Part shown: one piece after another, positions 3,763-38,939 of the stretch
Layout of the letters: each line of letters begins with the position of its first letter
How positions within the stretch are numbered: position 1 is the first letter of the stretch
Assembly: GCA_947302715.1 (NCBI GenBank)
Contig: CAMYVY010000010.1
Coordinates: 1-64,000 of the forward strand
Direction: 5' to 3'
DNA: 64,000 nucleotides
Source of the DNA: an uncultured Clostridia bacterium
Lineage (GTDB): Bacteria > Bacillota > Clostridia > Peptostreptococcales > Anaerovoracaceae
The notes under the pieces: model-generated
What the model saw: the letters and a program-made list of their open reading frames with translations, nothing else
The model's database searches: none
What the model was told of the DNA's origin: nothing
Translations under genes and position numbers: made by a program

Positions 3763-3909
3763 CGCAACAATATCTTATCAAGAGGGCATGAGTAATTGTT
3801 CGATTGTTGCCCGAAAGTATGATTTGATGTACAATAATATAGGCATTTTGTTGCTAAGAACCGTATATTTGTTTAGCACGTTTATACGTGTCATATAAAA
3901 TGCATATTA

Positions 3910-5589
3910 TTGGGGGCTATTTTGTATTGCAAGAAATGTGGTAATACGCTCAGTGAAAAAGATCGGTTTTGCAGGAAGTGCGGCGAGCGCGCATGGTTTT
4001 TGGATGTGATCGAAGTACCTGAGCCTGCCGAACCGGTTAAACCGGCAGAAGTACTCGAACCTGCCGAACCGGTTAAAACTGCAGAAGTGCCTGAAACTGA
4101 GCTAAGAATACAGGAAGCAAGAAAACAGGAAACAAGAGCACAAGAGACAGGTGCAAATACTGTTGATAAGGACGCCAAGGACGCATTCGACTTTTTAGAC
4201 AGAATGTTTGCGGACCTTGGTTTTGGTGAGGAAACGAGCAGCGTAGGACAAAAAGCTTCCCAAGCAGAATCAAAAAACGTAGAAGCCAGTTTCCGTACTG
4301 ACACTGCTACAAACAGCAATACCGGTACCACTACCAACAACAGCAATGCCAACACTACTACTGATATCGCCTCTGATATCGCCTCCGCTACCACTACTGC
4401 CACAGATATAGAATCAAGAATTCTTGAAAGCATTACAGGGCAGGAAGAAGACGATTACGAAGGTGACGACTATAGTGACAGCAATGGCACCGAACAAGGG
4501 GTTGCTCCAAAAACCAACGGAGCCAACGGATTCGACGAAAACAAAAAACCCAACGGAGCCAACGAAGCCGGAGGAACCAACAGCGCCCACGAATCCAAAG
4601 AAGCAAACGAAGCCGAAGGCACAAATGAAACCGAGAAAACAAAAAGCACAGCGGACGCGGAACCAACCAAACCAAAGAGATCCATTTTAAAGACACTGCT
4701 TTGGTTGCTTGCCGCCATAGCGATAATTGCTGTAGGCACGGTGATTTTCCTGAACCAGTGGCCAAAGATATTCCAGGAAGAAGTTCAGAATCAGCAAAAC
4801 CAACCGAGCCAAGGGAACTCGTATGACCCAAGCCAAGGTGGCTCCCCGAACGCCGGAGGGGCCGGCAGCCAGGGCACTTCAGGCAACGCTGGAACTTCCG
4901 GAATCCCAACCGCGACAGTAAATCCGCTCGACTTCGTGGATGACGACAAGGACATAATGCAAGCGTCCATAGAAGTCTTTGCCGGAAACGGCCCGAACAT
5001 CAAGGCCATAGAAACCATCTACAACCTAAAATTCACGGAAGACAGAGACTACCACCTTGAAGGTTTAAACAAAGCAATCCTCTTTGATGATGACCTATGG
5101 TACATGAATGATTTGATGGAGAACATCCACTACACTCCGGAAATCGTCAGGACGATAATCGAATTTGTCTCAACTTGGATGGATCAAAAGTCTGCAGGAA
5201 CAGGAGCTGTTCTATCCTACATCAAGGAGGACAGCGAGCTTTATAAGGAAATGCAGGACCTAAAGCCGGACGGAAAAGTCCACGCCATAGAAAAGATGCA
5301 GATTGGCGAAATGCGTCGAAGCGGCGAAGACTTCTATATTCTGCTTAATTTAACCGAGTCCGTGGATGGAGCAAATCAACAGGAATACGTAAAGGCGCTC
5401 CATTTGTTCGCGCGACCAAAAGTCCTTGAGGTTAGGGAAATGCGCGACCCGGTAGAAACAAAGAGCGCCGAATCGGACAACGCAAACACAGACAACACAA
5501 ACGCAGATACAGCAAATGCAAACACAGACAACACAAACGCAGACAACACAACGAATGCAGGCGAATCAACAGAGGACAAGGACGGCTAA
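3910..5589 (+). CDS. Zinc-ribbon membrane protein with long low-complexity linkers
   Basis: N-terminal CKKCGNTLSEKDRFCRKCG; Glu/Pro- and Asn/Thr-rich linkers; one TM (TLLWLLAAIAIIAVGTVIFL); TTG start. Confidence 0.75.
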   Translation: MGAILYCKKCGNTLSEKDRFCRKCGERAWFLDVIEVPEPAEPVKPAEVLEPAEPVKTAEVPETELRIQEARKQETRAQETGANTVDKDAKDAFDFLDRMFADLGFGEETSSVGQKASQAESKNVEASFRTDTATNSNTGTTTNNSNANTTTDIASDIASATTTATDIESRILESITGQEEDDYEGDDYSDSNGTEQGVAPKTNGANGFDENKKPNGANEAGGTNSAHESKEANEAEGTNETEKTKSTADAEPTKPKRSILKTLLWLLAAIAIIAVGTVIFLNQWPKIFQEEVQNQQNQPSQGNSYDPSQGGSPNAGGAGSQGTSGNAGTSGIPTATVNPLDFVDDDKDIMQASIEVFAGNGPNIKAIETIYNLKFTEDRDYHLEGLNKAILFDDDLWYMNDLMENIHYTPEIVRTIIEFVSTWMDQKSAGTGAVLSYIKEDSELYKEMQDLKPDGKVHAIEKMQIGEMRRSGEDFYILLNLTESVDGANQQEYVKALHLFARPKVLEVREMRDPVETKSAESDNANTDNTNADTANANTDNTNADNTTNAGESTEDKDG

Positions 5590-5591
5590 GT

Positions 5592-7286
5592 ATGTACATT
5601 AACCGAAACACCAAAATCATGATAGCGGCATGCGTCTTCCTCTACTTGCTTGCGGGAGTGCTCAGGCTGCTCGACATGGGATTGGGGCTGCTTCCTCTGA
5701 AGCTGGCCGCGATTTCCTATATCGCCCACTGTGTGCTCTGCATGCTTTGCTTGATATACCTAAACAGAGACATTCCGAACAACCAATCCCGGAAGTACCT
5801 GATGCTCACCATCATCTTCCTCTTTGCATGGCAGATAGTCGGAATGTTCAAGGACGTGCTCTTCCCCGAGGAGGTGGCTATAAACAGATGGCTTTGGTAC
5901 TTTTACTACGTGCCGATGACCTTCATACCGACCACGCTTTTTCTGGCCGCGCAGCACTCTGGCCTTCACAACGAACAAAAAATAAACCGCGCATGGTACT
6001 GGACACTCGCCGTATCAGCCGCGCTGTCGCTCTTGGTCCTGACAAACGACAGTCATCAAATGGTCTTCGGCTTTGCTGACGGACCGCAGAGCTTCTATCT
6101 GGGGCACAGCTATCAAGGTGGCTTCTTCCTGGTCATGACCTGGATATTCATAAACTTCGGTATGATATGCTTCACGCTCTGGAACCGAATAGACGTCGAA
6201 AAAACAAGAACCTACATATGGATCGTCTTCGTCAGCATCGGCCTCGGCGGCATCTACCTGCTTTGGCGCGTAACCAACTACAAAGTCATACCCTGGCTTA
6301 ATGACATGTACGACGTCCCGCAGATTTTCGAAGGCATAATAATCCTCGCGATTGAGCTCTGCGTGCGTATGGGCGTAATCCGTTCCAACTACAACTTCCT
6401 GGAGTTCTACACCGCATCCACCATATCATCATCCTTGGTGGACGCAGATGGAACAGTTAGGTATCAGACCAGTGGTATAATTCCATCGACCCGCGAGCAA
6501 AGGCTGGAATCCCTAAACCAGAACGTGTACATCGATCGCGACCACAGATTGAGCGGTAGATACATTCCGGGCGGCTACGCATTTTGGACCGACGACCTTT
6601 CGCAGTTCAATGAACTCGGACAACGCTTGACGGAATCCAGAGAACAGCTTGAAGAGGAAAACAACCTCATCAAAGCCGAAAACGAAATCATCGCCCGCCG
6701 CTCCAAGGCAGACGAAAGAAACAAAATTTACGACCTCATGGCAAGAAGCGTTAGTCCCGAACTCGACGCCATAGAGTACCTGATAAGAAGCGCGTCCCCG
6801 GATAGCCCCGATTTCAAGGACAAGCTCTCTCGGGCCTGCATTTACAAAGCCTACATCAAGAGGTACTGCAACATGATGCTCCTCGCCCAAGACAGCGACG
6901 AGCTATCGTCCTTCGAACTCGAAAACAGTATCAGGGAGTCCATGCAGTACATCGAGCTCAACGGAATCGAATGCGACTACCTGAAATTCGGAGAAGGCTT
7001 CTACCCTGCAGAGGCGCTGCTCCTGGCCTATGCCATCTTTGATAGAACGGTGGTAAAGGCACAGAATCTGGAAACGCTTACCGTAGAGCTGTCCGCAAAC
7101 GAAAGAGCGCTAAGACTCAGCGTCCACCTGGGCGGAGACGGCATATACATAGACGAAAAATCACTTGAGGAATTCGACTCCCGCCTGGAAGCCTTGGGCG
7201 GCAGCAAGAAAATCCGAACAGAAGAAAATATAAAGAATGTCCGAATAGATATTCCCAGGAACAAAAAGGTGGGTGAGGCAGCATGA
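5592..7286 (+). CDS. Multi-TM histidine-kinase-like protein with degenerate catalytic region
   Basis: Multiple TM helices, then coiled coil and a C-terminal region without recognisable H, N or G boxes; overlaps the next kinase by 4 nt. Confidence 0.65.
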   Translation: MYINRNTKIMIAACVFLYLLAGVLRLLDMGLGLLPLKLAAISYIAHCVLCMLCLIYLNRDIPNNQSRKYLMLTIIFLFAWQIVGMFKDVLFPEEVAINRWLWYFYYVPMTFIPTTLFLAAQHSGLHNEQKINRAWYWTLAVSAALSLLVLTNDSHQMVFGFADGPQSFYLGHSYQGGFFLVMTWIFINFGMICFTLWNRIDVEKTRTYIWIVFVSIGLGGIYLLWRVTNYKVIPWLNDMYDVPQIFEGIIILAIELCVRMGVIRSNYNFLEFYTASTISSSLVDADGTVRYQTSGIIPSTREQRLESLNQNVYIDRDHRLSGRYIPGGYAFWTDDLSQFNELGQRLTESREQLEEENNLIKAENEIIARRSKADERNKIYDLMARSVSPELDAIEYLIRSASPDSPDFKDKLSRACIYKAYIKRYCNMMLLAQDSDELSSFELENSIRESMQYIELNGIECDYLKFGEGFYPAEALLLAYAIFDRTVVKAQNLETLTVELSANERALRLSVHLGGDGIYIDEKSLEEFDSRLEALGGSKKIRTEENIKNVRIDIPRNKKVGEAA

Positions 7287-8671
7287 CAATAAACACATTG
7301 CTCGACAGCATCTTTGATGGTCTTACGCCGCTGGGCACCATGACACCGATTGGAACGGTACTTTGCTTCATGATTGCGACCGCATTGATACTGATGGGCG
7401 CATACTCCATGATTAGCGTTGCGACCACACTGACACCGAGAGCAATCTACGTTGGAATCGCATTCCTGACCTTCGACGTAATAGTGTTCTACATGGTATA
7501 TGAAGTCTGCAAGGCCGCCTTTGTTGAAGAGCACGCAAGCACCGAGTTGGGCTACTGGTTCAGCAACATGATTCCGCACTACCGATGGTTCCTGATGTGT
7601 GCACTACTGGCTGCCGGAATCGTGAGACTCATCTGGGTTCAGCGAACCATGAGCACTACAATAAACCAATTCTCGGTAGGAACGACCCTGGATCTAATCC
7701 CACTCGGAGTTGCATTTTCCAACGATTACGGACAGGTAATGCAAGCCAACGACAAAATCGACGAGCTCTGCTATCACCTGACAGGGAGCGCTCTTAGCAA
7801 CGAAAACGAATTTTGGAAAGCAGTAACCACGGGAAATATAAAGAACGGAACGCTGATAAGTAGACCTGACCTAACAGGGGAACTGAGGGGAGATATAAGC
7901 GACGGCGAACTAATCACAGAAAAGCCTGTAATAAGGATGCCCGACGGAAGCATATGGATGTTCTCCAAAACGGAGATCCAAACGGACATCGGTCCGGTTA
8001 GCCAACTGATCGCCATCGACGCGACGAAGGAAGAGGGTCTGGTTCAGGAATTAAATCAAAGCAACAAACAGCTAAGAGCGATGAACCAGAGACTCCGCCG
8101 CTACCATGAGGAAGTGGACGACACCGTCCGAAGCGAAGAGCTTCTTCAGGCAAAGATGCGAGTTCATGACAAAATGGGCGAAACGCTCCTTGCGGCCAAG
8201 ATATATCTAACAAACGAAGAAAGCCCGGTGGACGCCGAAACCGTTCTAAACAGCTGGGAACAGGACCTCGCCCTTCTGAGAGAAGAATCCAGAGGAGATG
8301 AACAACCCAAGCAGATGGAACGATTCGTGGACGCGGCGAAGCACCTTGGAATCGACCTGCAGATCATAGGAGAAATCCCGCAGAACCGCGAAATCCTGAA
8401 TCTGATATGCGTTGGAATTCAGGAATGCATGACCAACGCCTTCCAGCACTCGGGAGCCGACCAAATGTATGTAACCATCATCAAGGATGACTTCGCGTAC
8501 ACTGTCGACTACAGTGACAATGGAAAAACCCCGACCTACCCGATAAAAGAAGGCGGCGGCTTGGGAATGCTCAGGGAAATGGCAGAAAAAATGGAAGCAA
8601 CAATGAATTACGGCGACGGGAGACATTTCAGACTTACCCTGGAAATCCCGCGAACCTATGTCGAAATATAA
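7283..8671 (+). CDS. Sensor histidine kinase (NarX/DegS-like HisKA_3/HATPase_c)
   Basis: KMRVHDKMGETLLAAK phosphoacceptor-like motif; ECMTNAFQHS (N box), DNGK and GGGLGMLRE (G boxes); N-terminal TM segments. Confidence 0.85.
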   Translation: MTINTLLDSIFDGLTPLGTMTPIGTVLCFMIATALILMGAYSMISVATTLTPRAIYVGIAFLTFDVIVFYMVYEVCKAAFVEEHASTELGYWFSNMIPHYRWFLMCALLAAGIVRLIWVQRTMSTTINQFSVGTTLDLIPLGVAFSNDYGQVMQANDKIDELCYHLTGSALSNENEFWKAVTTGNIKNGTLISRPDLTGELRGDISDGELITEKPVIRMPDGSIWMFSKTEIQTDIGPVSQLIAIDATKEEGLVQELNQSNKQLRAMNQRLRRYHEEVDDTVRSEELLQAKMRVHDKMGETLLAAKIYLTNEESPVDAETVLNSWEQDLALLREESRGDEQPKQMERFVDAAKHLGIDLQIIGEIPQNREILNLICVGIQECMTNAFQHSGADQMYVTIIKDDFAYTVDYSDNGKTPTYPIKEGGGLGMLREMAEKMEATMNYGDGRHFRLTLEIPRTYVEI

Positions 8672-8688: not shown

Positions 8689-9327
8689 ATGTATAATGTG
8701 CTAATAGTTGAAGATGATGCAATAACCCGTCAGCTCTTGGAAATGTTCATAAATCAAAGCGACAAATACGAACTGGTAGCCGCCATCGACGACGCCGACC
8801 TTGCTCCTGTTTATTGTGCCAAGGGAGGAATCGACCTTGTGCTTATGGACATAAGAACTGCCATGCGCGCAAACGGTCTTGATGCTGCCGAGAAAATCAA
8901 GAAGAAATACAAAAACGTAAAAATCATTATATGCACATCAATGCCGGAATACTCCTACCTCACAAGAGCCAAGGAAATCGGAGTCGACAGCTTTTGGTAT
9001 AAAGAAGTCGTGGGCGATGCCTTCTTCGATTTAATTGACAGAACCATGGAAGGTGAAAGCATATTCCCGGACAAGACTCCAGAACTGCAGCTTGGTCAAG
9101 CAACAAGCACGGAATTCACGAGCAAGGAACTCGAGGTTCTAAAGGAGCTCATGAGCGGAGACAGTAACCAGGAAATCGCAGACAGACTTTGCATCTCCAT
9201 CAGCACTCTAAAAACGCATATTCAGCATTTGCAGGACAAGACCGGCTTCAGAAACCGCACGGAGCTCGCGGTACGCGCGCGCGAAATCGGACTTGTAATA
9301 AACGACGACGCAGCAGCAACCGACTGA
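8689..9327 (+). CDS. NarL/LuxR-family response regulator
   Basis: Receiver NVLIVEDDAITR..DLVLMDIRT; LuxR HTH FTSKELEVLKELMSGDSNQEIADRLCISISTLKTHIQHLQDKTGFRNRTELAVRA. Confidence 0.93.
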   Translation: MYNVLIVEDDAITRQLLEMFINQSDKYELVAAIDDADLAPVYCAKGGIDLVLMDIRTAMRANGLDAAEKIKKKYKNVKIIICTSMPEYSYLTRAKEIGVDSFWYKEVVGDAFFDLIDRTMEGESIFPDKTPELQLGQATSTEFTSKELEVLKELMSGDSNQEIADRLCISISTLKTHIQHLQDKTGFRNRTELAVRAREIGLVINDDAAATD

Positions 9328-9412: not shown

Positions 9413-9883
9413 ATGGCCAAACAAAAGAACGCAGCAAAAGAACTCAGGAAACTGAACCGTGGCGAGCTTCTCACCATGCTTATTTCCATTACTAAAAGAT
9501 GCGACGACTTGGAAGCAGAATTGGAAGAAGCCAACCGCAAGCTTGCGGACCGCTCCATCAAGATTTCCGAATCCGGCTCCATGGCGGAAGCACTGCTTAA
9601 GATAAACGGTGTAATGGAAGCTGCCGACAGAGCCAGCAGAGAATATGTAGAAACGATTCGTAGCATGTACGAAAATCAAGACGATGCAGTTCTTAACATG
9701 ATCGACGACACCAAGAGCAGGTGTGCTCAGATAGAAAAGGAAACGAAGATACGCTGTCAGGACATGATAGAAAAGGCCAAGGCTGAGTCCCAAGCCTACT
9801 GGAATGAAGCCTACGATAAAGTCAGGCAGTATAAGGCCGTAATCGATTCGATGAAAGAAATGATGGAAAAGCAGAAACAATAA
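9413..9883 (+). CDS. Coiled-coil protein (DivIVA-like)
   Basis: Long heptad-rich helix (LNRGELLTMLISITKRCDDLEAELEEANRKL...). Confidence 0.5.
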   Translation: MAKQKNAAKELRKLNRGELLTMLISITKRCDDLEAELEEANRKLADRSIKISESGSMAEALLKINGVMEAADRASREYVETIRSMYENQDDAVLNMIDDTKSRCAQIEKETKIRCQDMIEKAKAESQAYWNEAYDKVRQYKAVIDSMKEMMEKQKQ

Positions 9884-9889
9884 CTGAGG

Positions 9890-10474
9890 GTGGAAATGAG
9901 TAAAGCAGAAACTATGCGCTACTCCGTGGATGAACTCCAGGAGGAGTTGAGACGAGAGCAGAGGAAAAAACAGTATAGCAGCACGACCAGAAATACATTC
10001 TATGTAATGATAGTAGTTGCCGCAGTGGCTATCTTGGTGGCTACGCTTTGGATGCCGGTGCTGAGGATTTACGGTACGTCGATGACGCCGACACTGGAAG
10101 AAGGAAACATCGTGCTTTCGCTTAGAGGAGCGGATTTCGAAACGGGAGACATCGTAGCCTTTTATTACGAGAACAAGCTTCTGGTGAAGCGTTGTATCGC
10201 AGGTCCGGGAGATTGGGTTGATATGAGTGAGGAAGGTGACGTCTTTGTTAATGGGGAGCAAATAAACGAACCATACATAGATGAAAAATCCTACGGTGAC
10301 GTTACGATAACCTTCCCCTATCAAGTTCCGGAAGGAAGATACTTCGTAATGGGTGACCACAGATCGACATCTGCGGACTCCAGGCTTGCCATAATTGGCT
10401 GCGTTGCAGAGGAACAAATCGTTGGGAAAATAGTGTTTAGGATAATGCCATTTGATGAAATGGGAAACATTTAG
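9890..10474 (+). CDS. lepB: Signal peptidase I (S26)
   Basis: Single TM, YGTSMTPTLEEGNIV (catalytic Ser), LLVKRCIAGPGDWV (catalytic Lys), GDHRSTSADSR. Confidence 0.92.
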   Translation: MEMSKAETMRYSVDELQEELRREQRKKQYSSTTRNTFYVMIVVAAVAILVATLWMPVLRIYGTSMTPTLEEGNIVLSLRGADFETGDIVAFYYENKLLVKRCIAGPGDWVDMSEEGDVFVNGEQINEPYIDEKSYGDVTITFPYQVPEGRYFVMGDHRSTSADSRLAIIGCVAEEQIVGKIVFRIMPFDEMGNI

Positions 10475-10596: not shown

Positions 10597-10717
10597 TGTC
10601 AAAAAAAACAAAAAATACAGCTGCTTTTTGTTTTGTTACTTTTTCGACGAAAAAATGTTACCGAAACGCTACAAACGGCGAATTTTCAAGCCTTTTGGGC
10701 CTTGCTTCGAGAATAAA

Positions 10718-10735
10718 ATCATACTTTTGTACGAT
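10718..10735. promoter_or_regulatory. Candidate operator ATCATAC-TTTT-GTACGAT
   Basis: Imperfect inverted repeat (7-bp arms, 4-bp spacer) upstream of the giant surface protein; identical copy at 33733. Confidence 0.55.
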
Positions 10736-10960
10736 GTTGCAGAGCCTCTTCTAAAATAAACTCTACTTGTAAAATTAAACAAGGCCGTTAAGTGAGGGGG
10801 ATCACGCTGATGATTTATGGCCGTATGACAGACCATGGATTTGTAGACTTCCCCGAACTTTCGAGAAGCGTCCGTGGTTTTTGTTTAGAGTCATACAAGT
10901 TTTTGACATTGGATATTTTTTTGCTATATAAATTTGCTATATAAAGAGGGAGAACTTTAG

Positions 10961-13900
10961 ATGAGAACTGACCATCTCGAAAGAAGCGCGAGGACCATCA
11001 GCGCAAAGAAGAGGACGCATAAGCGGTGGATGAGAGTGGTGAGCACGCTTGCCGCTATTACCGTTTTTTGTACAACATATGCATTGATACTTCCCGCAAT
11101 TACAATCAGTGCAAATACATACTGCGGTTTGGATGAGCATGAACATACTGACGCTTGTTACGAGCGTCGGTTTATTTGTGGTTATGACGAAGAAGGAATT
11201 GTAGAAAAAAGTGTAGAAGGCGTAGCCGGAGATGCTGCGCCAACCATGGAAACAGAAACTCAAACCGTAACTGAAACTGTACTCGTAGATGCCGGTCACA
11301 TCCACGATGATTCTTGCTATGAAATAGAAAAAGTTCTCACATGTGAAAATACAGAAGAAGATCACGAGCACACTGATGCTTGCTACGAAGAAGTTAGAAC
11401 TCTCATCTGCGGTGAAGAGGAAAGAGAAGCCGTATACGAAGAGAGAGAAGTTGAGGCAGAGGCTGCACCTTTAGTGGCTGCTGTACCTGAAGTGGCTTTG
11501 GAAGAAGAACATGTACACACGGAAGAATGCTATGATAAAGTACTTGTCTGCGAGAAGCCGGAGCATAAACATACTGATGAATGCCGCGCCAACAAAGAGG
11601 CAGATTTAGAGACAGCTTCCATTTGGGAAAATACTCTTCCTGAAAAGTCCGAAATGAATGACGACTGGAAGAAGGACACGCTGCTTATTGCTCAGAGCCA
11701 GCTTGGATATAGAGAGTCCGAAGCCAATTTCATCGTGGTAGATGAAGAGCACAAGGGATATACACGTTATGGCGAAATGATGGGATCCCCATATGGCGAC
11801 TGGTGCGCCATGTTCCTGCAGTTCTCACTCCACTACGCCGGAGTAGACGTAAGAGCAATGGCAGGCAATCCTTCCGTGCCACTATGGATGGAGCAGGAAA
11901 TCGAAAATGAAAACTTCCATAAAGCAGATGACAAGGACTACGAACCGAAGTCAACCGACCTTATCTTCTTCGAATGGGAAGGAGACGAGTCACCTGACCA
12001 TATCGGTATCATTGAAGAAATAAAGAAGAACGATGATGGCAAGATTGAATCCATCATTACTATAGAAGGTAACTCCCAGAACGAAGTTCGCAAGAATTCT
12101 TACAAGGCCGACGACAAGCACATCTTCGGATTCGCCGAGATTCCGGACAAGATGACGGAAGAAGAACTTCAGGCACTGGTCGGTGACCGTGAAAAAGCAG
12201 CAGAGAAAAAAGCAGAAGCTATAGAGAAAGCTATGCACCTGTCGTTCGAACTTGAGCATGCAGAAGTTGAAGCTACCATTTATACGGACGACACATATCA
12301 AACAATAGCGGACGATGACGAGACTAAAATCTTTGTCACCGGAATGTTGCCGTATGCAAAAAGAATCGACACAGAAGATGCCGATAAAGAAGATGCCGCT
12401 GCTGAAGATGCCGACACAGAAGATGCCGATAAAGAAGAACCCTCCCCGGAACTTGCCGTAGAAGTAAAGGCATATCCAATAGAGATGGAAAGTCCAAGCG
12501 GCGCCAAGATGATTCTTTCCTATGACATCAAGATTCTCTACAAGGAAGAATTCAAGACTCTTGATACAGGGGACGAATTCCAGCCAACGGTTCCGGTAAG
12601 CGTTAGCTTTGAATCACCGCTTCTTACAGAAGACAAAAATAGTGGAACCCGATTCAACGTCTACCACACTACAGATGAAGGCGTAACAGAACTCGTAGCA
12701 GCAGAGAGCAGGATTTCACAAACATCAAAGGACGTTGAAGAAATGATTCCTGCGGAAGCAAAGACCAGTGATTTAACCGAAGAGGAAAAAGAATTAGCTG
12801 AAGCAACAAACACGTTGGACGAGCTCACGAATTCCATAGAGAATCGTTTTGAAAATGAAAACACATATGAGACACTAATCAGTGGACGTATGGAACTAAT
12901 CTCAAAAGAGTTGGCAGAGGCCATAGCAGGAAACTCTGTTAGCGCAAATCTCGGAGTGGATCAAACCGCTGAAACATATGAATCTGCGGAGATGGCTCAA
13001 GATGCTCCTCCTTTGATTGTAAAAAAGGATGAAGAGAATGTAAGAATTACATTTGAAGCCTCACATTTCTCTCCATACGGCGTATCCGCTGAAAAGCAGG
13101 GAGATTACGAGGATAGAACCGACGAAGCTGAAGTAACCAGCATACAGGTTCTTGAAGATGGAGCAACGGTCAATCCGCATCATGCTCACAAAAACCAGAC
13201 TGTCAAACTTACAATTTCCGCGCAAAAGAAAAAGGATTACAATTTTGGAGTAGGCGATTATTTCACAATTGCATTACCGGAAGAACTGGATTTCAGAGGA
13301 CTCGTCGGAAGCAACATCAATGCTGATGGAAACGGCGGATTCAAGGGTCTTGGTAAAATTTATTATAAGGACGGAAAACCATACCTCGACATTGAGATAA
13401 CCACAGTAGGAACGGAACCAAGTCTAGCTGTATTTGGTTTTGCCGCCAATGTACCTTTTGATTTCACTCGAAGCAGCGTTGTCCCGAATGCGAATCTCAA
13501 TATGACAGCAAAGTCCGATTACAGCGGCGCTACTCCGGCAACCACCAATGTTAGACTGAACAACTACAATGATGGCGTAAACCGTAATCTGACGAGCGAT
13601 GCTGAAGTAACAGGTATCGGTGTCTTTGGCATGAACCTGAGCTATAGCAGCATGGAAATGCAGAGATTGGAAAGAGGCGAAACTGATACCACATACACTT
13701 TAAGAGTGAATTTCAAGTGGAATGCAGGAGAGAGTGCCCCACATATTAAAGCGGGAGATTATATCGTAATAGATATGCCGGCGCCCGTAGATGGTTTTGT
13801 TTATAGGGATCCATTCGGCATGTCATTCCCCATCACCAAGATTGTAACCAATCCTGTAACCGGAGTAAAGGAAGAAGTTCAGATTGCTGATGCAGTATAT

Positions 13901-16900
13901 AATCCTGAAACAGGAAAAGCGACAATTACATTTAACGACAATGTAGGCACAAGTGGTGATGCAATCTATGCCGGCGGTTATTTCCCAATGAACGTAAGTT
14001 TCACAACTACAGGAATTAAGCGCCTTACAGCGACTACCGAGGGTAAGTCGGGCAAATCAACAAACATCAAAATTGGTCAGGAAAGTGTAGTTTCCGGAAC
14101 ATGGAAAGCGGCGGAGTATCCATACTATTATGAACTCAGTAGCTACACTGCCACCACAAAAAGGAATGGCAGCACGCATAAGTCGACTGGTATTACTACA
14201 TTCCTACTTTATCCTGCAGGCAATAAGCCTAACTGGAATAGTATTAGAGCTAATCAGCAGTGGTATAAGGCAGATGGAACAGATCCCTATGCAGTAGTAT
14301 ACTGTGCAGATCATGATACTGACTATGCTGTTTCCACATTTAACAAGTATCCTGTAATGCAGGCACCGAACACTAAGCTTGACGAGACGACCAAGAAAAA
14401 GATGTCCGGAATAGTTACTCACAGTTATCCATTCGTATCTGCTGCGGATATGTATAAGGCTTTAGGCTTAACATCGCTTACCCCTGACGAGGATGTTGCT
14501 ATGACTGCAGCTCAGCTGGCACTTTGGGATGTGATAAACAACCGTACTTTAACATCTGTTAGTCAGACGAGTCTCTCTACAACTGCAGCAGAGTATATGC
14601 TTAAGGCAAGACAGAAGACCTGGGGAAGACAGGACGACGTTTGGACAGTATATAATGCGCTTAAGTCTAAAGCACTGGATTTATATAATGATTCCGTATC
14701 TACAGCCAGCGACGATAATCCAATCACATTAGTAAAGGGATTTACGCAGATTGTTTCTCAGCAGGCGATTAATTCGGATGGTGACCAGGAATACTGGGTA
14801 CAGTTCAAGTTAAGCAGAAAAATTGAAGAGGATGAAAACCTTGATAGCTTTGTTCTCGCTGCTTCATCCTCCACACAAGATAAATATAAGACTGTAATCA
14901 CACAGGCTGACCTGGATGGTAACAGTGCCAATTTCCAGTGGATAGACAAGAATGCAAGCCAGCCAACATTCAAAGTAAGGGTAGTTGTTCCTGTTAATGA
15001 AACTCAGATCAACTTCAGCGGCAAGATTAATGGTGCAATAGTTGAGACTGTAACTCCGTATTATTACTATAACGGCCATAGTCAGTCTATGATTGGTGCT
15101 GAGAAGACCGATGACTTTGGTTGCTTCGAGTTGAATGACACGATTCCAATTGTACCGGACATCGCCATCAAAGAATACACAAAGCTTGTTGTTGAAAAGA
15201 AGTGGTACGATGCTGATGGTACAGAAATGACATCTGCTCCGAGTGGCATTAATTCGATTCAAGTACAGCTCTATAAGAATGGACGCCCCGAGGGCGAGCC
15301 TGTAACAATTACTCCGGGAACTGATGGCAAGTGGAGATATGAGTGGCCCGAATTACAAACCAAAGAAACAATCAATGGCGTCACTTATGTATACTCATAT
15401 TCTGTGAAGGAAGTTAACGTTCCTGCAGGATACCGTGTTGAGTATGATGAAGTGAAACTGGAGACTCATACTACTACAGGTGGAGGATACCGCTTTGTTA
15501 GAATGGAGAGCTTAAGTGAGCTGACTGACGCAGATAGAATGAATAGTGTAATTATTTACGCCCCAGGAAAAGGTTATTTAAGAGCCACAAATGCCGGCTT
15601 CTATTGGGATTCCACAAACGATATTCAAAATGCAACTGCGACACAGAATGGCTACTGGCCTTCGGAATATGATGATGCTATTTGGCGTTTTTCTAAGGTT
15701 AATGATGTTTATCAAGAGTATTTTGACTTATACCATCCGGCCACGAATAAATCTCTATATGATACAGGTCTAAGACCAAGACTGATGTCAAGCGATGACG
15801 CTCTGCGAGGTGATTTCAAGGTAGCAAAACTATATCCGACTTCAGGTAGCGAAGCAAGAATGATTAAATTCTACAACCGTGCTACAAGTCATATGGATTA
15901 TATTACGGGGCATGGAGCGACAGGTACAGGTGAACAGCTTGAGCTAATGACTTGGACGGATATCAACTCTGCGCTTAACTTCTACTTCTATTCGTGGAAG
16001 TATAGCGATACTAAGACTGAAACATATCTCCTTGCCGGAATAAACAATATAGCGGCAGGAAATACTGAGGTTGAGGTAGAGAAGAAGTGGCAGGATGAGA
16101 ATGGAAATCCAACTGACGTTCCAGTAGGAATTGATTCTATAACAGTTAAGTTACTCCAAAATGGACAGGAAGTAGATACGATAAATGGTGTAAGTGGAAC
16201 CCAAATCCTAAATGCAGGAAACAGCTGGAAATACAAATGGGAAAATCTGCCCGTATATGATGAAAACGGAGAGAAATACACATACCAGGTAATTGAAATT
16301 CAACCTGAAGGCTACGATCTTGTAGATATTTATGTCAATAAGGTTAAAACCAAGATAGGTGGCGGCAATTCATCTTCAGGAGAAGGTGGACCTGGAACAG
16401 GATCAACGGGTAGTGCACAGGGGACAGTGGGTCCAATCACAAATACTACAAACACGGTGCTGCAAGCTGCACAGACAGATCCGGACATTAGCAGGTCGAT
16501 TTCATTTACATCAAGCGATTATATTAACTACTCGGAGCACACTGGCAATCAAGTTCAGATTATTTCCAATCAAGGAGCATTGGCTTATGATGGAAGTAGC
16601 ATTAGATGGCAAACGAGAAAAACCGGACAAAGCAATAATAGTTATGACGATGTAAGGAAACAACTTTGGAAAGTCGTTTACTCTGGTAATCAAACAGGAT
16701 CCAGCGAGTATAATGGTTATTACTATAATCTACAGAATGTTTATGATCCAAACGTATATCTAAGCTATAATAGCAGTGAATACTTTACAGTGGGTTCTTC
16801 TGACGACTTGGGGTATTTTGGTAGTAGTAGCTCCTACAAAAATAGACTAATAGGTTACGTGGATGGCTGGAGATACTGGAATTACGGAAATATTAGTGGC

Positions 16901-17932
16901 GTTAATCGAGACTATTTTACTAGGTATAAGAGTAACGGCGGAAATATAACGTATCATAAGATAAACAGTAACTTGACTACGGGTTCGCATCCATATGTTC
17001 CAGGCGCTTCTGACAGTGTAACCTTCGGACTTTCTGGTACTGATCATACTATTGATACCTATGGAAGAGTTCTCTTTGATGCGGTAGGTGATGTTGCAAC
17101 AATTACTCAGAATGTATCATCATCCAATTCTCAGTACACTGTTACATACAATATAAGCGGTGATGCAGGAGTTATCAGTGTCGCGCAGGATGGAACAGTG
17201 ACGGCCTTAGCAGACGGCGATGCAACTGTAGTAGCAACTGTTAATACAGGAAACACTACACAGTCTAAAGCATATGCCTTTAGAGTATCGCTACCGGCAG
17301 CTGAGCCGGACCCTGAAGATGAAGGACCGGCTGACGATTCGGATGCGGCAGATGATGAATATGTATCCAAGTACGAATACAGATTCACAAACAGAAAATC
17401 TACATACATCTACGACGTTAAACTGCTAAAGGTAGCGAGCGAGAATAAACCGGTTAAAAGCATAGACGATGTAGAAGAGCAATACAAAGATATGTCCAAT
17501 AATCCGGCTAAATTCGAGCTCTATGTACAGTACGAAGATGAATGGGACCTTGTTAGAGAAGTAGAGGTAACCATGAACAGCAATAGAGAGGTTGCTTTAG
17601 ACAATCTCGAGGCCGGAAGAACATATAGGCTGGTTGAAATTGAGGCACCGGCAGGACGCAAGCTGTTAGAAGTACCCGTTGAATTTACAATCACTGCAGG
17701 ATCTGACGGGACAGGCTTTGTAACCTGGAATGGTTCACCGCTTAATATAACAGGACCTGCTCTGGGAGGAAATGCAGCAACTATTGTGATTCCGAATGAA
17801 AGAATCGAAAATGGTGTCGAGCTCCCACACACCGGTGGTATCGGAACCGTAATCTTCACAGTACTCGGTGTGGTCCTGGTAGTAGGTGCAGCACTTGCGC
17901 TTCTCCTAAGCAGGAGCAAGCGCCGGGACTGA
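10961..17932 (+). CDS. Giant LPxTG-type surface protein: Cys/His repeats, CHAP-like domain, putative thioester domain, Cna-B-like repeats
   Basis: Signal/TM near N-term; HEHTDACY/HIHDDSCY/HVHTEECY/HKHTDEC repeats; DWCAMF..PDHIGIIEE..IEGNSQ; YCADHDTDY..AAQLALW; Cna-B-like repeats; C-term LPHTGG + TM + SKRRD. Confidence 0.88.
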   Translation: MRTDHLERSARTISAKKRTHKRWMRVVSTLAAITVFCTTYALILPAITISANTYCGLDEHEHTDACYERRFICGYDEEGIVEKSVEGVAGDAAPTMETETQTVTETVLVDAGHIHDDSCYEIEKVLTCENTEEDHEHTDACYEEVRTLICGEEEREAVYEEREVEAEAAPLVAAVPEVALEEEHVHTEECYDKVLVCEKPEHKHTDECRANKEADLETASIWENTLPEKSEMNDDWKKDTLLIAQSQLGYRESEANFIVVDEEHKGYTRYGEMMGSPYGDWCAMFLQFSLHYAGVDVRAMAGNPSVPLWMEQEIENENFHKADDKDYEPKSTDLIFFEWEGDESPDHIGIIEEIKKNDDGKIESIITIEGNSQNEVRKNSYKADDKHIFGFAEIPDKMTEEELQALVGDREKAAEKKAEAIEKAMHLSFELEHAEVEATIYTDDTYQTIADDDETKIFVTGMLPYAKRIDTEDADKEDAAAEDADTEDADKEEPSPELAVEVKAYPIEMESPSGAKMILSYDIKILYKEEFKTLDTGDEFQPTVPVSVSFESPLLTEDKNSGTRFNVYHTTDEGVTELVAAESRISQTSKDVEEMIPAEAKTSDLTEEEKELAEATNTLDELTNSIENRFENENTYETLISGRMELISKELAEAIAGNSVSANLGVDQTAETYESAEMAQDAPPLIVKKDEENVRITFEASHFSPYGVSAEKQGDYEDRTDEAEVTSIQVLEDGATVNPHHAHKNQTVKLTISAQKKKDYNFGVGDYFTIALPEELDFRGLVGSNINADGNGGFKGLGKIYYKDGKPYLDIEITTVGTEPSLAVFGFAANVPFDFTRSSVVPNANLNMTAKSDYSGATPATTNVRLNNYNDGVNRNLTSDAEVTGIGVFGMNLSYSSMEMQRLERGETDTTYTLRVNFKWNAGESAPHIKAGDYIVIDMPAPVDGFVYRDPFGMSFPITKIVTNPVTGVKEEVQIADAVYNPETGKATITFNDNVGTSGDAIYAGGYFPMNVSFTTTGIKRLTATTEGKSGKSTNIKIGQESVVSGTWKAAEYPYYYELSSYTATTKRNGSTHKSTGITTFLLYPAGNKPNWNSIRANQQWYKADGTDPYAVVYCADHDTDYAVSTFNKYPVMQAPNTKLDETTKKKMSGIVTHSYPFVSAADMYKALGLTSLTPDEDVAMTAAQLALWDVINNRTLTSVSQTSLSTTAAEYMLKARQKTWGRQDDVWTVYNALKSKALDLYNDSVSTASDDNPITLVKGFTQIVSQQAINSDGDQEYWVQFKLSRKIEEDENLDSFVLAASSSTQDKYKTVITQADLDGNSANFQWIDKNASQPTFKVRVVVPVNETQINFSGKINGAIVETVTPYYYYNGHSQSMIGAEKTDDFGCFELNDTIPIVPDIAIKEYTKLVVEKKWYDADGTEMTSAPSGINSIQVQLYKNGRPEGEPVTITPGTDGKWRYEWPELQTKETINGVTYVYSYSVKEVNVPAGYRVEYDEVKLETHTTTGGGYRFVRMESLSELTDADRMNSVIIYAPGKGYLRATNAGFYWDSTNDIQNATATQNGYWPSEYDDAIWRFSKVNDVYQEYFDLYHPATNKSLYDTGLRPRLMSSDDALRGDFKVAKLYPTSGSEARMIKFYNRATSHMDYITGHGATGTGEQLELMTWTDINSALNFYFYSWKYSDTKTETYLLAGINNIAAGNTEVEVEKKWQDENGNPTDVPVGIDSITVKLLQNGQEVDTINGVSGTQILNAGNSWKYKWENLPVYDENGEKYTYQVIEIQPEGYDLVDIYVNKVKTKIGGGNSSSGEGGPGTGSTGSAQGTVGPITNTTNTVLQAAQTDPDISRSISFTSSDYINYSEHTGNQVQIISNQGALAYDGSSIRWQTRKTGQSNNSYDDVRKQLWKVVYSGNQTGSSEYNGYYYNLQNVYDPNVYLSYNSSEYFTVGSSDDLGYFGSSSSYKNRLIGYVDGWRYWNYGNISGVNRDYFTRYKSNGGNITYHKINSNLTTGSHPYVPGASDSVTFGLSGTDHTIDTYGRVLFDAVGDVATITQNVSSSNSQYTVTYNISGDAGVISVAQDGTVTALADGDATVVATVNTGNTTQSKAYAFRVSLPAAEPDPEDEGPADDSDAADDEYVSKYEYRFTNRKSTYIYDVKLLKVASENKPVKSIDDVEEQYKDMSNNPAKFELYVQYEDEWDLVREVEVTMNSNREVALDNLEAGRTYRLVEIEAPAGRKLLEVPVEFTITAGSDGTGFVTWNGSPLNITGPALGGNAATIVIPNERIENGVELPHTGGIGTVIFTVLGVVLVVGAALALLLSRSKRRD

Positions 17933-18058: not shown

Positions 18059-18180
18059 GTTGTTTTTGATAGTTATTTCACCCCTTTTTTGTCTCTGTGA
18101 CTTAAGCGATATTTTTTTGCTACCAAAGTGTGATAAAAACGCTGAAAAATAGGGAATTGTGAAAACCAAAAAACAAAAAA

Positions 18181-18198
18181 ATCATACTTTTGGCTGAT
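18181..18198. promoter_or_regulatory. Degenerate copy of candidate operator (ATCATACTTTTGGCTGAT)
   Basis: Left arm and spacer identical to 10718 and 33733; right arm diverged. Confidence 0.4.
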
Positions 18199-18528
18199 GG
18201 GACGAAATAGGGGTTCTAATAGAATTTATGTATCACAAAGCTGGGTTTCAAAATGACTGTATAGTATGAGGGGGGAACTCACCTATATTGTGTAGCAATG
18301 ACGATTGCTGCGACGTAGATTTCTGCCCCTCCAGGTAGGTGCATTCAGGTAACGATTCCTGTACCCTCACCTGATATAAGGGCATTTTTTAATATAGATA
18401 CCGTTACATCAAGGCGTTTTAAGCGCATAAAGATAAGGAAACCATAAGGAAAGTAAATTAGAAACAAGAATAAACAAGTTAAAGAGAAGCAATAAAAGAG
18501 AAGCATTAAGAGAAGTGAGGATAAACAA

Positions 18529-21500
18529 ATGAGAACTGACCATCTCAATAAGAGCGCAAAGGCCATAAGTGCCAAAAAAAGAACGCATAAGCGTTGGATG
18601 AGAGTGGTAAGCACGCTTGCCGCTATTACTGTTTTTTGCACAACTTACGCATTGATACTACCTGCGATAACGATTAGTGCAAATACACATTGTGGACTGG
18701 AAGAACACGAACACACTGACGAATGTTATGAACGTCAGCTTGTTTGTGGTTTTGATGATGAAGGAAATGCGGTTACGCCTCAAGAAGGCGAGGCTGCCGA
18801 AGTCGCTCCAACAACTGAAATAGTCACAGAAAGCGTACTCGTAGATGCTGGTCACATCCACGATGAATCTTGCTATAACGTCGAAACAACTCTTATATGT
18901 GAAAATACAGAAGAAGATCATGAACATACAGAAGCCTGCTACGAAGAAGTGCAGACACTCGTTTGTGGTGAGGAAGAAAGAGAAGCCGTATACGAAGAAA
19001 GAGAAGTTGAAGTACCTGTAGAAGCACCGGCAGAGACAGTGGCACCGGCGGAAGCTGAAGCTGCTGCTGAGGCAGACCACGTACACACAGACGAGTGCTA
19101 CGAGAAGGTTCTTATCTGCGGAAAGGAAGAGCACAAGCACACAGATGGATGCTTCTCAAACAGCGATGCTGACTTAGAGACAGCAGAGATTTGGGAGCGT
19201 ACACTTCCAGAAAAGTCCGAAATGAAGGACGAGTGGAAGGAAGACACACTCCTGGTTGCACAGAGCCAGATAGGCTACAAGGAATCTGAAGCAAACTTCG
19301 TAGTAGTAAATGAAGAGCGCAAGGGATACACTCGCTACGGCGAGATGTTTGGCGTTCCATACGGTGATTGGTGCGCTATGTTCCTGCAGTTCTCACTCCA
19401 CTATGCAGGAGTAGATACCAGAGCAATGGTTGGATCCCCATCCGTTCCGCTTTGGGTAGAAGCAGAAATCGAAAACGAAAACTTCTACAAGGTCGGCGAA
19501 AAGATCAAAGACGAAGAAACCGGCGAAGAAAAAGAATATATGCCAAAGGCAACAGACATCATCTTCTTCGATTGGGAAAACGACGGATCCCCGGACCACG
19601 TAGGTATCATAGAAGAAATCAAGATGGACGAAAATGACGAAACCAAGATCGATTCCATCATCACAATCGAAGGTAATTCCCAGAACGAAGTTCGCAGGAA
19701 TACCTATAAATCAAATTATGAGCATATTTACGGCTACTCCGAAATCCCGGACAAAATGACCGAAGAAGAGCTCCAGGCACTGGCTGAAGGGAAACCTCTC
19801 CCCTCTTCCGAAGAAGCAAAGAAGCCTAGAAAAGAATACGTTGGTGTGGACGGAGAACTGGTTGTTGATGAAGACGACTATACCGTCACTGTAACATACA
19901 CAGCTGAAGCAGGCATTCCTGAGGGTGCGACACTTCAGGTTTCAGAGATACTGCAGGATACCGAGGAATATAGCATCTACAATGACAAATCAGCAGAAGA
20001 AATTTACGGAAAGAACGAATCCCTGCTGTATGCTCGTTTCTTTGACATCACGATTCTTGACGAGGAAGGTCTGGAAGTAGAGCCTGTATCTACAGTATCC
20101 GTTGTTATCGATACAAAGGACGATGCGCTTCAGACAGAAGACGTCAAAGTTGCTGCTGTCCACTTTGTTGATGAGAACAAGCAGGCTGCAGAAAGTGCAG
20201 AAGCAGCTGAGACTGCAACTCCAGCGGAAGAATCTGCAACAGAGACTGTAACTCCAGCAGAAGAGACAGCAACTGAGGCAACAGAAGCTGCTGAGGCAGC
20301 AGATAGTGAAACTGCTGAAGAAGAAGCAGCTGCACAAGAAACTCCGGTAGAAACTACTGAACCAGCAGCAAGCACTTCAGCAGCACCGGTAGATCCAGCA
20401 GCACTTACAACAACAGTACTCGATGTTGTAACCAGTGACGTTGTATCATTTGATACGGACGGATTCTCGGTGTACGGCGTTGTTATTTACTATACCGTTG
20501 ACTTCTATTACACATTCCCGGCAGACGATGAGACTACCGAAGAAGTTGAAGTGGACATGACGGAATATCACATGCCTGGCGGATCAGAGATGATGATGTC
20601 TGAGTTGTTTACAAAACTTCAGATCGAACGCAATACAGCAGACATAGCAAATGTTGAATTTACCAACTATGAGCTCGTTACATTCACTAAAGAAGATGAT
20701 GATTATAGAATTAAATCCCTCATCCCGTTCTTGAGCCACGAGATGCTGACCATTACATTTAATGATGGCGAGGTGCTTGAGATTGCTGTAGATGACGCTC
20801 AGGTCAACGGAAAGAACAAGAAGATAGATAGCTGGACAGACCTTAAGGTTGAAATTGATTGGGCGTTTAATAGGCAGAACAAATCCGAGGTAGTAGTATC
20901 AGGTATTGATTACACATTCTTTGGTGCAAACCAGACGATTACTGTACCGGACGGCAAAACACTTAAGATTATATTCAAAGAAGGCACCACTATTGGTAAA
21001 GCAATGCTTGCAATCAATACAAATTTATCTGGTATCGCAAGCAACTTTGGACCATTCTTCTCGGTAGGCGAAAATGCAACGCTTGAGATTGAAAATGCTA
21101 CATTCACAGGACGCCAGGTCTTTGTTGAAGGAAAGGATGTGTGGGCAAATAATAAGGCCTACCGTTATCCTCAGGATGATCCCTCAGGACTCAACAGATT
21201 TAAGAAAGGTGATTACGCCGGGGTTGCTCCGTATTTCTCGTGGTTAAATACAGATATAGCTAACAGTGTAGCAGGCAAAGGGTACTTCATAGATTCATAT
21301 GGAACAACAGTAGTTAAAAACACTGTATTTAAAAACATAAACTCCAACGAGGCAGGAGATGGACCAAGAGATTTAAGGGCCACTGCAAATAATGAACTAG
21401 TGGCAAGCAACTTTAGAGATACTGCGCCAATATATTCTCATAAAGGAAGCCTGACGGTTAATAACAGCACATTTGAGAATAACTATTTGTTCCAAAGCCC

Positions 21501-24500
21501 AGACCAGAACAGCAACGCTGGTGCAATTATCGCGAATGGTTCTCTAAACATTACGAATTCTCAATTCAAGAATAATGGTGCTAATGGTGGCGTAATTATC
21601 CATAATAGCGGTAACGCCAGCATATCGGGAACCACCATTGATGGAAATGTAATAAACGGAGCTGATGCTGCGCCAATCGTTTCAAAGTCTGGTTCTACCA
21701 TGACTCTAAATAATACAAATATTAAAAACAACTTGGCTCTTTATCCACGTTGGGAAGAGGCTGCAGCAAGGGGTGGCAATAACGAAGCATTCCTGAGGAC
21801 CGATGACTTTGATAATTTCTTTACTTATCTATCGGGGTTGAGTCTTGAAAGTTACGGTGGCAAGGCAAGGTCTACACCGTATACACAAAAGGATAACAAC
21901 CATCCCTATGGAGGGTATTTCTACGGTGATACGGGCCTCAGCGTAGGTGATCCAGACTCCCCGGCTTCATCTGTAGGATCGTCTACTGGATATCTAAACA
22001 ATGATCCTACCAGAACAGCCGGTGCGGTTTTGGTCTCCGGAGGGAACGTTACCATGAACGGCGGATCCATGAGTTATAACATGGGTGACCATGGTGCAGT
22101 TCTTGTAACTAATGGCGGAACATTTACACAGAATAGCGGCAGCATAGACCACAATAAGGGATATCATGCTGGTGCAGTTGCTATGGCAGGTAATGGCGGC
22201 ACTAATACCTACAACTTGAATGGCGGTGAGCTCCATAACAATCTGAGCATATGGTATGGTACTGTTAACGTATCAGAGCAGAACTCAAGATTTACCATGG
22301 GTGTGAATGGTGGTAATCCAACTATCAGAAATAACTTTACCTTGCACAAGGGTGCAGGCATATACGTAAACTCCAGTAATACGGATATTAAGAGCGGAAC
22401 TATCAAAGATAATACGGCTGCGATATTTGGCGGAGGTATTTACCTTGAAAGATATCGTGATTTAAAGCTCCAAGCAACTGAGATACATCACAATACAGCG
22501 ACATCAAACCTTCCGCTTACAAAAACAGATGGAGTTGCAATAGCGAAAGTTTCCGGCGGAAGCGAAGAGCTCTGGAAACAAGCATGGTGGTCAAACCTTG
22601 GTTCAGGTCTTGGTGGTGGCGTATGGTCGTGCCCAACAGGAAGAACGTCGTTTGATAATACGGAGGTAGCCATTTATCAGAACACAGCGTCTACTAATGG
22701 CGGCCAAGACTTCAGCATTAGAGATCATGGTGACAAACTTACTTTCCGCACGAACGAAACATGGGTAATGGAGAATGCCCCATTACCTGCTCCTAGAATT
22801 GCGGGAACTGTAACTCAGAATCCTACAGACCCTGCGTTTATCCCTACAGAAGGGAAAAAGGAAATAAGATTTACAAATTCGAATCACAGTTCGGTTGCAG
22901 GAAATAAGACGTACAATCTTGTCATCACCGGAAACGCAGCTCCATGCGGAGGCGGTATTGCATCGAACGGTAACCTGGGTCTTATAGATAAGAAGCTGGT
23001 AGACGCAAACATAAACTTCGAAAAGACATATGCAACGGGTGCTCCAGTACATCGAGTAAGAGTTACGGTTACTCTAATTGATGAAAATAGTAATATCGTT
23101 CAGATTGAGGGTGAAAACTCTAAGACTCTTTATCTGAATGAAACCAACAATTGGAAAGCATCCATGAAGCTTCCTGCGGTTCTTGAAGCAACAGAAGGCT
23201 CTGCAGCATATGCTGCCTTGAATAATGGTACACTTACGGTTGGTGATACCAAGATTGGGAAGTGGACCATTAGAGTAAAGGAAGAAGTAGATATTTCCAA
23301 TGACAATAGTGGAAAATGGATTGATGCAGCTGAACAATATACCGTTGGTCTTAACAAGTCTACACTTAATAAAGACGACAAGGAGTTCTCGGTTACATAC
23401 AACGTTAAGGCATCATTGCATAATGTACCAAGTATTGTTCCGAAGGCAGAGTGGCAGCCACAGGTAACGAAGTCATTCACCACTAATGATGAAACTCGCG
23501 CTAATGAGGAGTTTACGTTTGCTCTATATGCTGCGAGCGGTGAGAACTTTGTACTTGGTGATGTAATAGAGCGTGTAACAGTGCAAGGAAGCGGAACCGC
23601 AAGCTTCGCTAAGATTCAAAACCTTGAACCTGGAACATACAGATATGTGATGAAGGAAGTCATAGCTGCCTCTGATGAAGAAGTTGGTATGACTTTCGAT
23701 AGAAGTGAAAAGAGGATTACTGTAGTTGTTACTAGAGATGCGAACGACGAGACAAAGGCAGTTGCAACGGTTACAGGCAATAATCCTACATTCAACAACA
23801 CCTATACTAAGCCTCAACAGGGCGAGCTTGTCATACAGAAGGTAGACCAGAATGGTGTGGCATTACCTGGTGCGACATTCGAAGTATGGTCATTCGATGG
23901 CTATACACATAAGACAATAACAGCTTCAGGCGACGGAAGCGTATTTAAGATTCCAGGAAATGTTTCAATACAGGAGTGGTTCAGCCCATGGGAGAATGCT
24001 AATGACAAGCATTACTATAACAATACGCTGTACTTTATAAAAGAAGTTAGTCCACCAGATGCAGCTACTTATAAGCCGCTTGAAACTGTTATACCGTTTA
24101 AGCTTAGCGTAAACGAAACAACGGGAGACATCTCCTTCGTTCCGCTAACACATATTGGGGCTGCAACTAATGGTAGTAACGAAGTTACTGGTGATCCGAA
24201 TGCCATACCGTCTAATCAGTGGATGATCTACAGCAATAGCAATGGCATTACAACGCTTAAGAAATCAGGAGACACTGGTGGCTATAGCAACAACCAAAGA
24301 ACAGAAAGGGAAGTTATCAATTGGAATCTAATAGGTAGCGGCAAGCAGGTTTCCTTCGCTGAATTCCAGAGTGGAGACAAAAAGGCCATAACTTATACTG
24401 TATCCAATGAAGAAAAACAAAATCCTGGCATTACCGTACAGAAGATTGACGAAAGCGGAAATCCAATTCCTGGCGCAGTATTTAAGATTCGTCCGATAGA

Positions 24501-33565: not shown

Positions 33566-33732
33566 CACTGATGCAGGCTACTGCATTCCCACACCCCGTC
33601 TATCCATTTCTACAAACAACAAGCACCAACATACCCCTTTTTCGCAAGTGTTACTTTAATGTTTAGCGAGTGTTACCAAACCGCTACAAATGGCTAAAAA
33701 TAAACGTTTTCGAGCGATTTTTTGCTCCGAAA

Positions 33733-33750
33733 ATCATACTTTTGTACGAT
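33733..33750. promoter_or_regulatory. Candidate operator ATCATACTTTTGTACGAT
   Basis: Identical to 10718-10735; flanking sequence also similar (TTACCnAAnCGCTACAAAnGGC upstream). Confidence 0.55.
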
Positions 33751-34008
33751 TACGGAAGCCCTTTTTCTCGGTAAACTTTAGTTACAAAAATTCAAGAAAT
33801 CGTGCAAGCGAAACTGAGCACGATGCGAGGGGGCTCCAATGTAAAACAAAAGTTTCACATTGTGATCAATCCCGTCGCGAACACCAAGCGGCGGGATATT
33901 ATTTTAAAAACCCAAGCAGGTAAGAAGAACTTAGAAAAGTAAATCCAAACCAAACTGAAGTTGGTACTAACGATAGAAATATCGTCTGTATATAAAACTG
34001 AGGAGAAA

Positions 34009-35724: not shown

Positions 35725-35898
35725 TCTAACGTAATTCATACTCATAAGCATTAAGTATAACTTGGGGAGTCCGTAAGGGCTCCCCAAGGGACTGTAATAG
35801 GACTTGTGAACACATTGGTAACTGTAGTACAATAGACATATATGTGTTCGGAACTGCTATTACAGATCTAGGAGGAATAATCTTGGCCAGTGCCGTAA

Positions 35899-36914: not shown

Positions 36915-36979
36915 CATTTTAATAAAACTGGGAATAAGGAAAATAGGAAGAATAAGTTATAGATAATTAATTGGAGGCT

Positions 36980-38104: not shown

Positions 38105-38132
38105 ATATTGTTTTCTTAATTGACTACTTGGG

Positions 38133-38159
38133 ACGGCTCACACGTGAGCCGTCTTTTTT
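38133..38159 (+). terminator. Rho-independent terminator
   Basis: GACGGCTCAC-ACGTGAGCCGTC-TTTTTT. Confidence 0.88.
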
Positions 38160-38234
38160 AGGGGATGGCAAGCTACTATAAAATCCATCTTTAGTGGCTT
38201 GACTGGATAGCGCTAAAGGGCGTAAAATAAAGGC

Positions 38235-38897: not shown

Positions 38898-38939
38898 TAG
38901 GCGAAGATTAACTTAGGAAGATTTTTGAAGGAGGAGAAA

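Follow-up and report, generated by a model that had tools for sequence, protein, structure and literature searches.

An inverted-repeat box at adhesin and pilus promoters of uncultured Clostridia and its candidate NarL-type regulator

Genes of the locus

The window (the whole 64,000-nt stretch of DNA that was analysed) carries a sensor-regulator operon, two genes for giant surface proteins and a pilus operon. The genes considered here are the following.

3910..5589, + strand: zinc-ribbon membrane protein
5592..7286, + strand: 7TM sensor, pseudo-kinase-like, with no recognisable phospho-acceptor H-box
7283..8671, + strand: NarX/NarQ-type histidine kinase (H295 in HDxxG, N385, GGL)
8689..9327, + strand: NarL-type response regulator (Response_reg plus GerE HTH), the proposed box-binding protein
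9413..9883, + strand: coiled-coil protein, probable operon member
9890..10474, + strand: type I signal peptidase (S26), probable operon member
10961..17932, + strand: giant LPXTG surface protein of 2323 aa with thioester, Cna_B and SpaA domains
18529..27534, + strand: second giant LPXTG surface protein, 3001 aa, with SpaA and FctA domains
34210..39938, + strand: pilus operon (major pilin, sortase, Cna_B pilin, second sortase, zinc-ribbon protein)

The regulator encoded at 8689 matches Response_reg (E = 1.3e-15) and GerE (E = 1.3e-14), both above cut-off. Its receiver residues D54, T83/S84 and K105 are invariant in orthologues and paralogues, while the recognition helix is nearly identical in orthologues and different in paralogues. 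The NCBIfam equivalogs FimZ, CsgD and NarL give 69, 58.5 and 65.1 bits against cut-offs of 271, 250 and 250, all three scores falling short. In the adjacent kinase, which is of the HPK7/NarX type expected as the partner of such a regulator, H295 and N385 are invariant and matches to curated models are weak. An ORF at 9398-10417 on the - strand was set aside as an artefact overlapping two real + strand genes. Near the surface-protein region lie a PD-(D/E)XK transposase (27628-28518), a HicB-like antitoxin (31652-32002) and a HipA-like gene (52765-54030).

A promoter-linked box and a second upstream element

An inverted repeat, referred to as the box, recurs in the promoters of these genes together with other elements:

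3806..3823, - strand: divergent box before the regulator operon, between -35 TTGCCC (3807-3812) and -10 TACAAT (3830-3835)
10635..10672, + strand: upstream element GTTAC-N17-GTTAC-N6-GCTAC, an 11-bp phased direct repeat ending 45 bp before box 1
10718..10735, + strand: box 1, ATCATACTTTTGTACGAT, at the promoter of the first giant surface protein, in the predicted class II position
10757..10762, + strand: -10 hexamer TAAACT, exactly 21 bp after box 1, no -35 consensus
18097..18134, + strand: upstream element GTGAC-N17-GCTAC-N6-GTGAT, before box 2
18181..18198, + strand: box 2, ATCATACTTTTGGCTGAT, second giant surface protein, a full member of the consensus
18220..18225, + strand: -10 hexamer TAGAAT, 21 bp after box 2
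33650..33687, + strand: upstream element GTTAC-N17-GTTAC-N6-GCTAC, before box 3
33733..33750, + strand: box 3, ATCATACTTTTGTACGAT, upstream of the pilus operon
33772..33777, + strand: -10 hexamer TAAACT, 21 bp after box 3, no -35 consensus
33819..33905, + strand: structured leader of the pilus transcript; contains GAGGGGG, an ATG-TAA start-stop pair, one hairpin and a stem resembling a terminator

The box is a real, promoter-linked motif. Within three mismatches of the 18-mer, only the sites at 10718, 18181 and 33733 occur in the window (0.07 expected), and none of the window shuffles reached three matches at this threshold. The identical 18-mer that the sequence-only reading had reported at 10718 and 33733 is exact at both positions. 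The 18181 copy lies where that reading had put it and differs at three positions; its description as half-conserved falls away, because the conserved motif is ATCATACTTTTGNNNGAT and the copy is thus an ordinary member. The two half-sites are parted by 4 nt in a 7-4-7 arrangement, ATCNNNC-TTTT-GNNNGAT, of which the left half is the better conserved. The dyad symmetry claimed earlier holds for ATC/GAT and for C/G around TTTT and fails at the middle triplet, so that the repeat is imperfect and its exact symmetry weak; perfect palindromes (ATCATAC-TTTT-GTATGAT) are present in two congeners (G012 and G002; L017, L025).

The genome-wide scan proposed earlier was run on a genus sample comprising the window's own 2.05-Mb genome (G000) and 12 congeners. 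Across these 13 genomes, ATCATACTTTTGNNNGAT with at most one mismatch has 26 matches, vs. two for the reversed pattern, and the 12-mer core occurs 28 times, vs. once for the reversed control; the motif is therefore strongly over-represented and oriented. In G000 itself the 12-mer ATCATACTTTTG occurs eight times and its reversed control not at all. Placement is thus non-random: the scatter over random genomic positions that had been named beforehand as the refuting outcome did not occur. The box coincides with exported-protein genes, as had been anticipated for surface-protein genes, and the proposal that adhesin and pilus loci share an operator in their promoters is supported. Several 12-mer matches were rejected as boxes, being chance or coding occurrences (L022; L008, inside an ABC-transporter gene; L013 and L021, an identical sequence in two box-less genomes, lacking GAT). 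Among 200 genomes of the family, an exact box was found outside the genus in one genome only (L112/G215) and was likewise rejected. The named neighbour genomes are mostly uncultured rumen or omasum MAGs.

Spacing to the promoter was assessed on 13 exact, promoter-like, non-tandem copies. In nine of these a -10 hexamer (TA...T) begins exactly 21 bp after the box, compared with a null maximum of six at any single offset (5000 shuffles); with orthologous pairs dropped, 7 of 11 remain at this offset, against a maximum of five in 1000 dinucleotide shuffles. The hexamers found behind boxes are TAAACT, TAGACT, TAGAAT, TAAAAT, TATTAT and TACTAT, and at L017 TATAAT follows at 22 bp. No sigma-70-like promoter with a -35 was found at 10718 or 33733. 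Taking the first base of the -10 as -12, the dyad centre therefore falls at about -42 from the start site, start positions being predicted from sequence. A box at about -42 without a -35 would occupy the classical class II activator position, i.e., near -41.5 with a poor or absent -35. The ten class II genes all encode surface, exported or zinc-ribbon membrane proteins, the first sizeable downstream frames being those of giant adhesins, pilins, Cna_B proteins, signal-peptide proteins and a zinc-ribbon membrane protein. Copies lacking a -10 at 21 bp are the serpin copies, L006, L028, L029 and L040. At L006 (ABC transporter) an exact box stands in a promoter dominated by 11-bp GTTAT repeats, with no -10 at that distance. 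Secreted serpin genes of the sister genomes G011 and G012 (L010, L085) carry a box at a different spacing to a -10-like element.

Alignment of the box promoters on the -10 revealed a second element, GTKAC-N17-GYTAY-N6-GYKAY, whose last two units form an 11-bp direct repeat. Seven promoters, spread over five genomes, have this pair beginning 100 or 101 bp ahead of the -10, and L017 keeps the distance even though its box is displaced by one base. Within the genus the strict pattern occurs 10 times, vs. a single match for the reversed control; 6 of the 10 are box promoters, and the rest are close to other boxes or belong to separate promoters. Other 11-bp-period GTTAC/GTTAT arrays (L006:1501-1640, L167, L168, and L016/L018 downstream of the -10) adjoin genes for ABC transporters, RiPP-like peptides and exported proteins, which suggests a second regulon or a wider use of the array.

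The box and the array might be read by different proteins, a NarL-type regulator on the former and an OmpR/PhoB-type regulator on the latter. This division of labour, compatible with binding of the 8689 product to the box, has close to an even chance of being correct. The 11-bp-period GTTAC repeats do resemble OmpR-family sites, and at L006, L167 and L168 similar arrays do not always have a box adjacent. However, the strict array matches all lie in box-bearing genomes (G000, G002, G007 and G009, each with box and regulator), TAC plus A/T is common to array and box, and ComA, a member of NarL's own family, binds 11-bp-period direct repeats besides inverted repeats (PMC4797271).

Transcripts of the targets may carry a further layer of control. 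The pilus leader is more stably folded than expected (z = -4.3 for 33784-33905) and is conserved at the pilus operon of G009, recurring elsewhere only at the zinc-ribbon gene of G002. A covariance model built from it recovered its three source sequences and a weak match in G005 only, and the leader is therefore not a widespread family. In the adhesin leaders (10795-10910, 18265-18410; L026), GAGGGGG is followed by C-rich hairpins with CCCC in their 5' arms. These arms could pair with GAGGGGG to give a possible attenuator, and leader attenuation is best regarded as a lead.

The candidate regulator and its competitors

Box copies outside the class II arrangement are of two kinds. The reverse-strand half-site ATCATACTTT reported earlier at 3814-3823 is present there, within the full context GTTGCCCGAAAGTATGAT (3806-3823 on the + strand), before the regulator operon. 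This box is kept in G002, again between TTGCCC and the -10 (TACAAT/TAAAAT in the pair), and was not seen before the operon in G009, G012 or G007. Location between -35 and -10 is a repressor position and would imply feedback repression; autoregulation is thus plausible in G000 and G002 only, where the position of the site suggests repression. The second kind is found in G000, G009 and G002, where two reversed boxes, spaced by 33 bp, lie in the interval flanked by pgm and a phosphoribosyltransferase gene. In G000 and G009 the nearer box is 15 bp upstream of TTGACA-17-TAGAAT/TAAAAT, and the G002 promoter is similar; the boxes thereby lie at about -59 and -92. They precede a conserved, unannotated, transcript-like stretch that has a strong promoter of its own and ends in a hairpin plus T-run (L003:1550-1765, L011, L091), a region for which Rfam has no family. 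Rfam searches of the window and of 20 box loci found no known RNA except one tRNA. The occurrence of boxes in reversed orientation supports dyad recognition.

Orthologues of the 8689 regulator (77-97% identity) are present in G000, G009, G012, G001, G002 and G007, all of which are box-positive. Hence 6 of 7 box-bearing genomes have an orthologue and none of the six box-less genomes does, the latter holding only 39-51% relatives, distant weak matches or nothing. The association is significant (Fisher p = 0.005), the genomes sharing descent so that the test is not phylogeny-independent, and it may reflect one common ancestor. A LysS tree groups G000/G009/G007/G002 and G012/G011, with deeper nodes unresolved. 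The remaining box-bearing genome, G011, has its box before a serpin gene; no orthologue was detected in this assembly, which is 77% complete. A box follows shortly behind the regulator gene in G002, G007 and G012. In G009 the cassette sits between addB and rplM, far from any adhesin, and the pilus box is kept on another contig; the link between box and regulator would therefore act in trans. In the 200 family genomes, relatives of the regulator at about 40-55% identity are common, in varied contexts and mostly with both sensor genes. The cassette of 7TM sensor, NarX-like kinase and NarL-type regulator is accordingly widespread in the family (L130-L144), and some copies adjoin large exported proteins.

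Being almost confined to species that carry the sensor-regulator system, the box is probably its on-switch for the cell surface, and the 8689 response regulator is its likely cognate protein. This assignment is strong but circumstantial. What the DNA itself shows is the motif with its spacing, the array, the restriction to one clade, the co-occurrence with the regulator, the domain content and the conservation of the phosphorylation residues. As to the operator, the sequence-only reading is largely borne out, and its choice of regulator is plausible; it had overlooked the rigid -10 spacing, the upstream array, the phosphoribosyltransferase-pgm transcript and the leader structures.

Alternatively, the box could be the class II operator of a different, clade-restricted transcription factor, with the 8689 system co-occurring by descent. 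Such an explanation would accommodate the phylogenetic clustering of the co-occurrence, the retention of a box in G011 and the fact that regulator and target genes are not always adjacent. It is nevertheless unlikely, since boxes lie behind the regulator gene in three genomes and before its operon in two (G000, G002), the recognition helix is conserved in the box-bearing clade, and a dyad combined with direct repeats is the format of the ComA/NarL family (PMC4797271). The ORF beside the pilus box (32801-33565), considered as a rival regulator, was rejected for want of a convincing DNA-binding domain. It is still far less credible that the shared sequence is non-regulatory promoter DNA copied along with duplicated adhesin genes: the signal peptides of the two giant proteins are almost identical, and duplication of their promoters is thus conceivable, but the promoters compared are largely unrelated around the box except for the box itself, the -10 and the array. 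Boxes are also found at unrelated genes and in other species, as well as reversed at fixed spacing before an RNA promoter, which largely refutes the idea. Equally improbable is a core-promoter, alternative sigma-factor or A-tract/UP element; the spacing to the -10 is fixed and the left edge of the box is A-rich, yet a -35 element would not stand as far from the -10 as the 27 bp measured from the TTTTG core, and boxes are found elsewhere in reversed orientation (about -59 and -92) and between a -35 and a -10.

Proposed mechanism and relation to known systems

For the 8689 regulator acting on the box, we infer binding, phosphorylation, direction of control and signal as follows. The 7TM sensor (5592) and the NarX-like kinase (7283) would sense a cue from the surface or envelope and transfer phosphate to D54 of the regulator, whose dimer, once phosphorylated, would bind the imperfect 7-4-7 repeat at about -42 and recruit RNA polymerase to -10 elements lacking a -35 (class II activation). 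In this way the giant adhesins would be turned on along with the pilus/sortase operon and further exported proteins. The half-sites of the GTTAC array, at about -112 to -134, probably provide cooperative or additional binding. At the phosphoribosyltransferase-pgm transcript the reversed dyads would act in class I mode, and at the regulator operon the site between -35 and -10 would give feedback repression of the regulator's own promoter. In its most inclusive form, a single NarL-type regulator would read both the inverted repeat (about -42) and, at rigid spacing some 70-90 bp further upstream, the three-half-site direct-repeat array; it would co-switch adhesins, pili and a conserved non-coding transcript, with attenuation added in the structured GAGGGGG/terminator leaders. 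This combined version is tentative, holding perhaps one chance in three.

The closest known system is ComA of Bacillus subtilis, the NarL/FixJ-family partner of ComP. ComA recognises an inverted repeat with a 4-nt spacer and a better conserved first half-site, which serves class I activation, and a direct repeat, TTGCGG-5-TTGCGG, with a 5-nt spacer between hexamers and an 11-bp period, which serves class II activation (PMC4797271). The present system has the same kind of tetrahelical HTH response regulator, the same 4-nt spacer and first half-site bias, an additional 11-bp-period direct repeat on the same promoters, and proposed class I and class II activation. In contrast to ComA, the half-site is ATCATAC rather than TTGCGG: the site would work in a ComA-like way but is not itself a ComA box. 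The order of elements is reversed, with the inverted repeat here in the class II position and the direct repeats far upstream. The targets also differ, being sortase pili and adhesins, as does the kinase pair, a 7TM sensor plus a NarX-like kinase.

LuxR-type regulators such as NarX-NarL, FimZ and CsgD include some that control fimbriae or curli in Gram-negative bacteria. The 8689 system resembles them in domain architecture, in its best curated-model matches (all below cut-off) and in the proposed control of surface appendages; unlike them, it contains no equivalog member, uses a different DNA motif and would govern sortase-assembled pili. Dedicated regulation together with other adhesins is described for streptococcal sortase-pilus operons (PMC7900414). 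Joint control of the two target classes is proposed here as for RofA/Nra, MsmR and CovRS. However, the streptococcal regulators are RALP/AraC-type stand-alone proteins or the CovRS two-component system, whereas the candidate here is a NarL-type response regulator. Literature searches for a Gram-positive pilus system under NarL-type control returned nothing of direct relevance.

Judged by its sequence, the box architecture is a real and well-conserved regulatory architecture. It points to NarL-type two-component systems as possible controllers of sortase pili, and would carry the ComA-style pairing of inverted with direct repeats over to another motif, in which the order of elements along the promoter is reversed. 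For these uncultured, mostly rumen, Clostridia it offers a testable surface-adhesion regulon with a candidate regulator, an operator, a fixed geometry and a list of targets.
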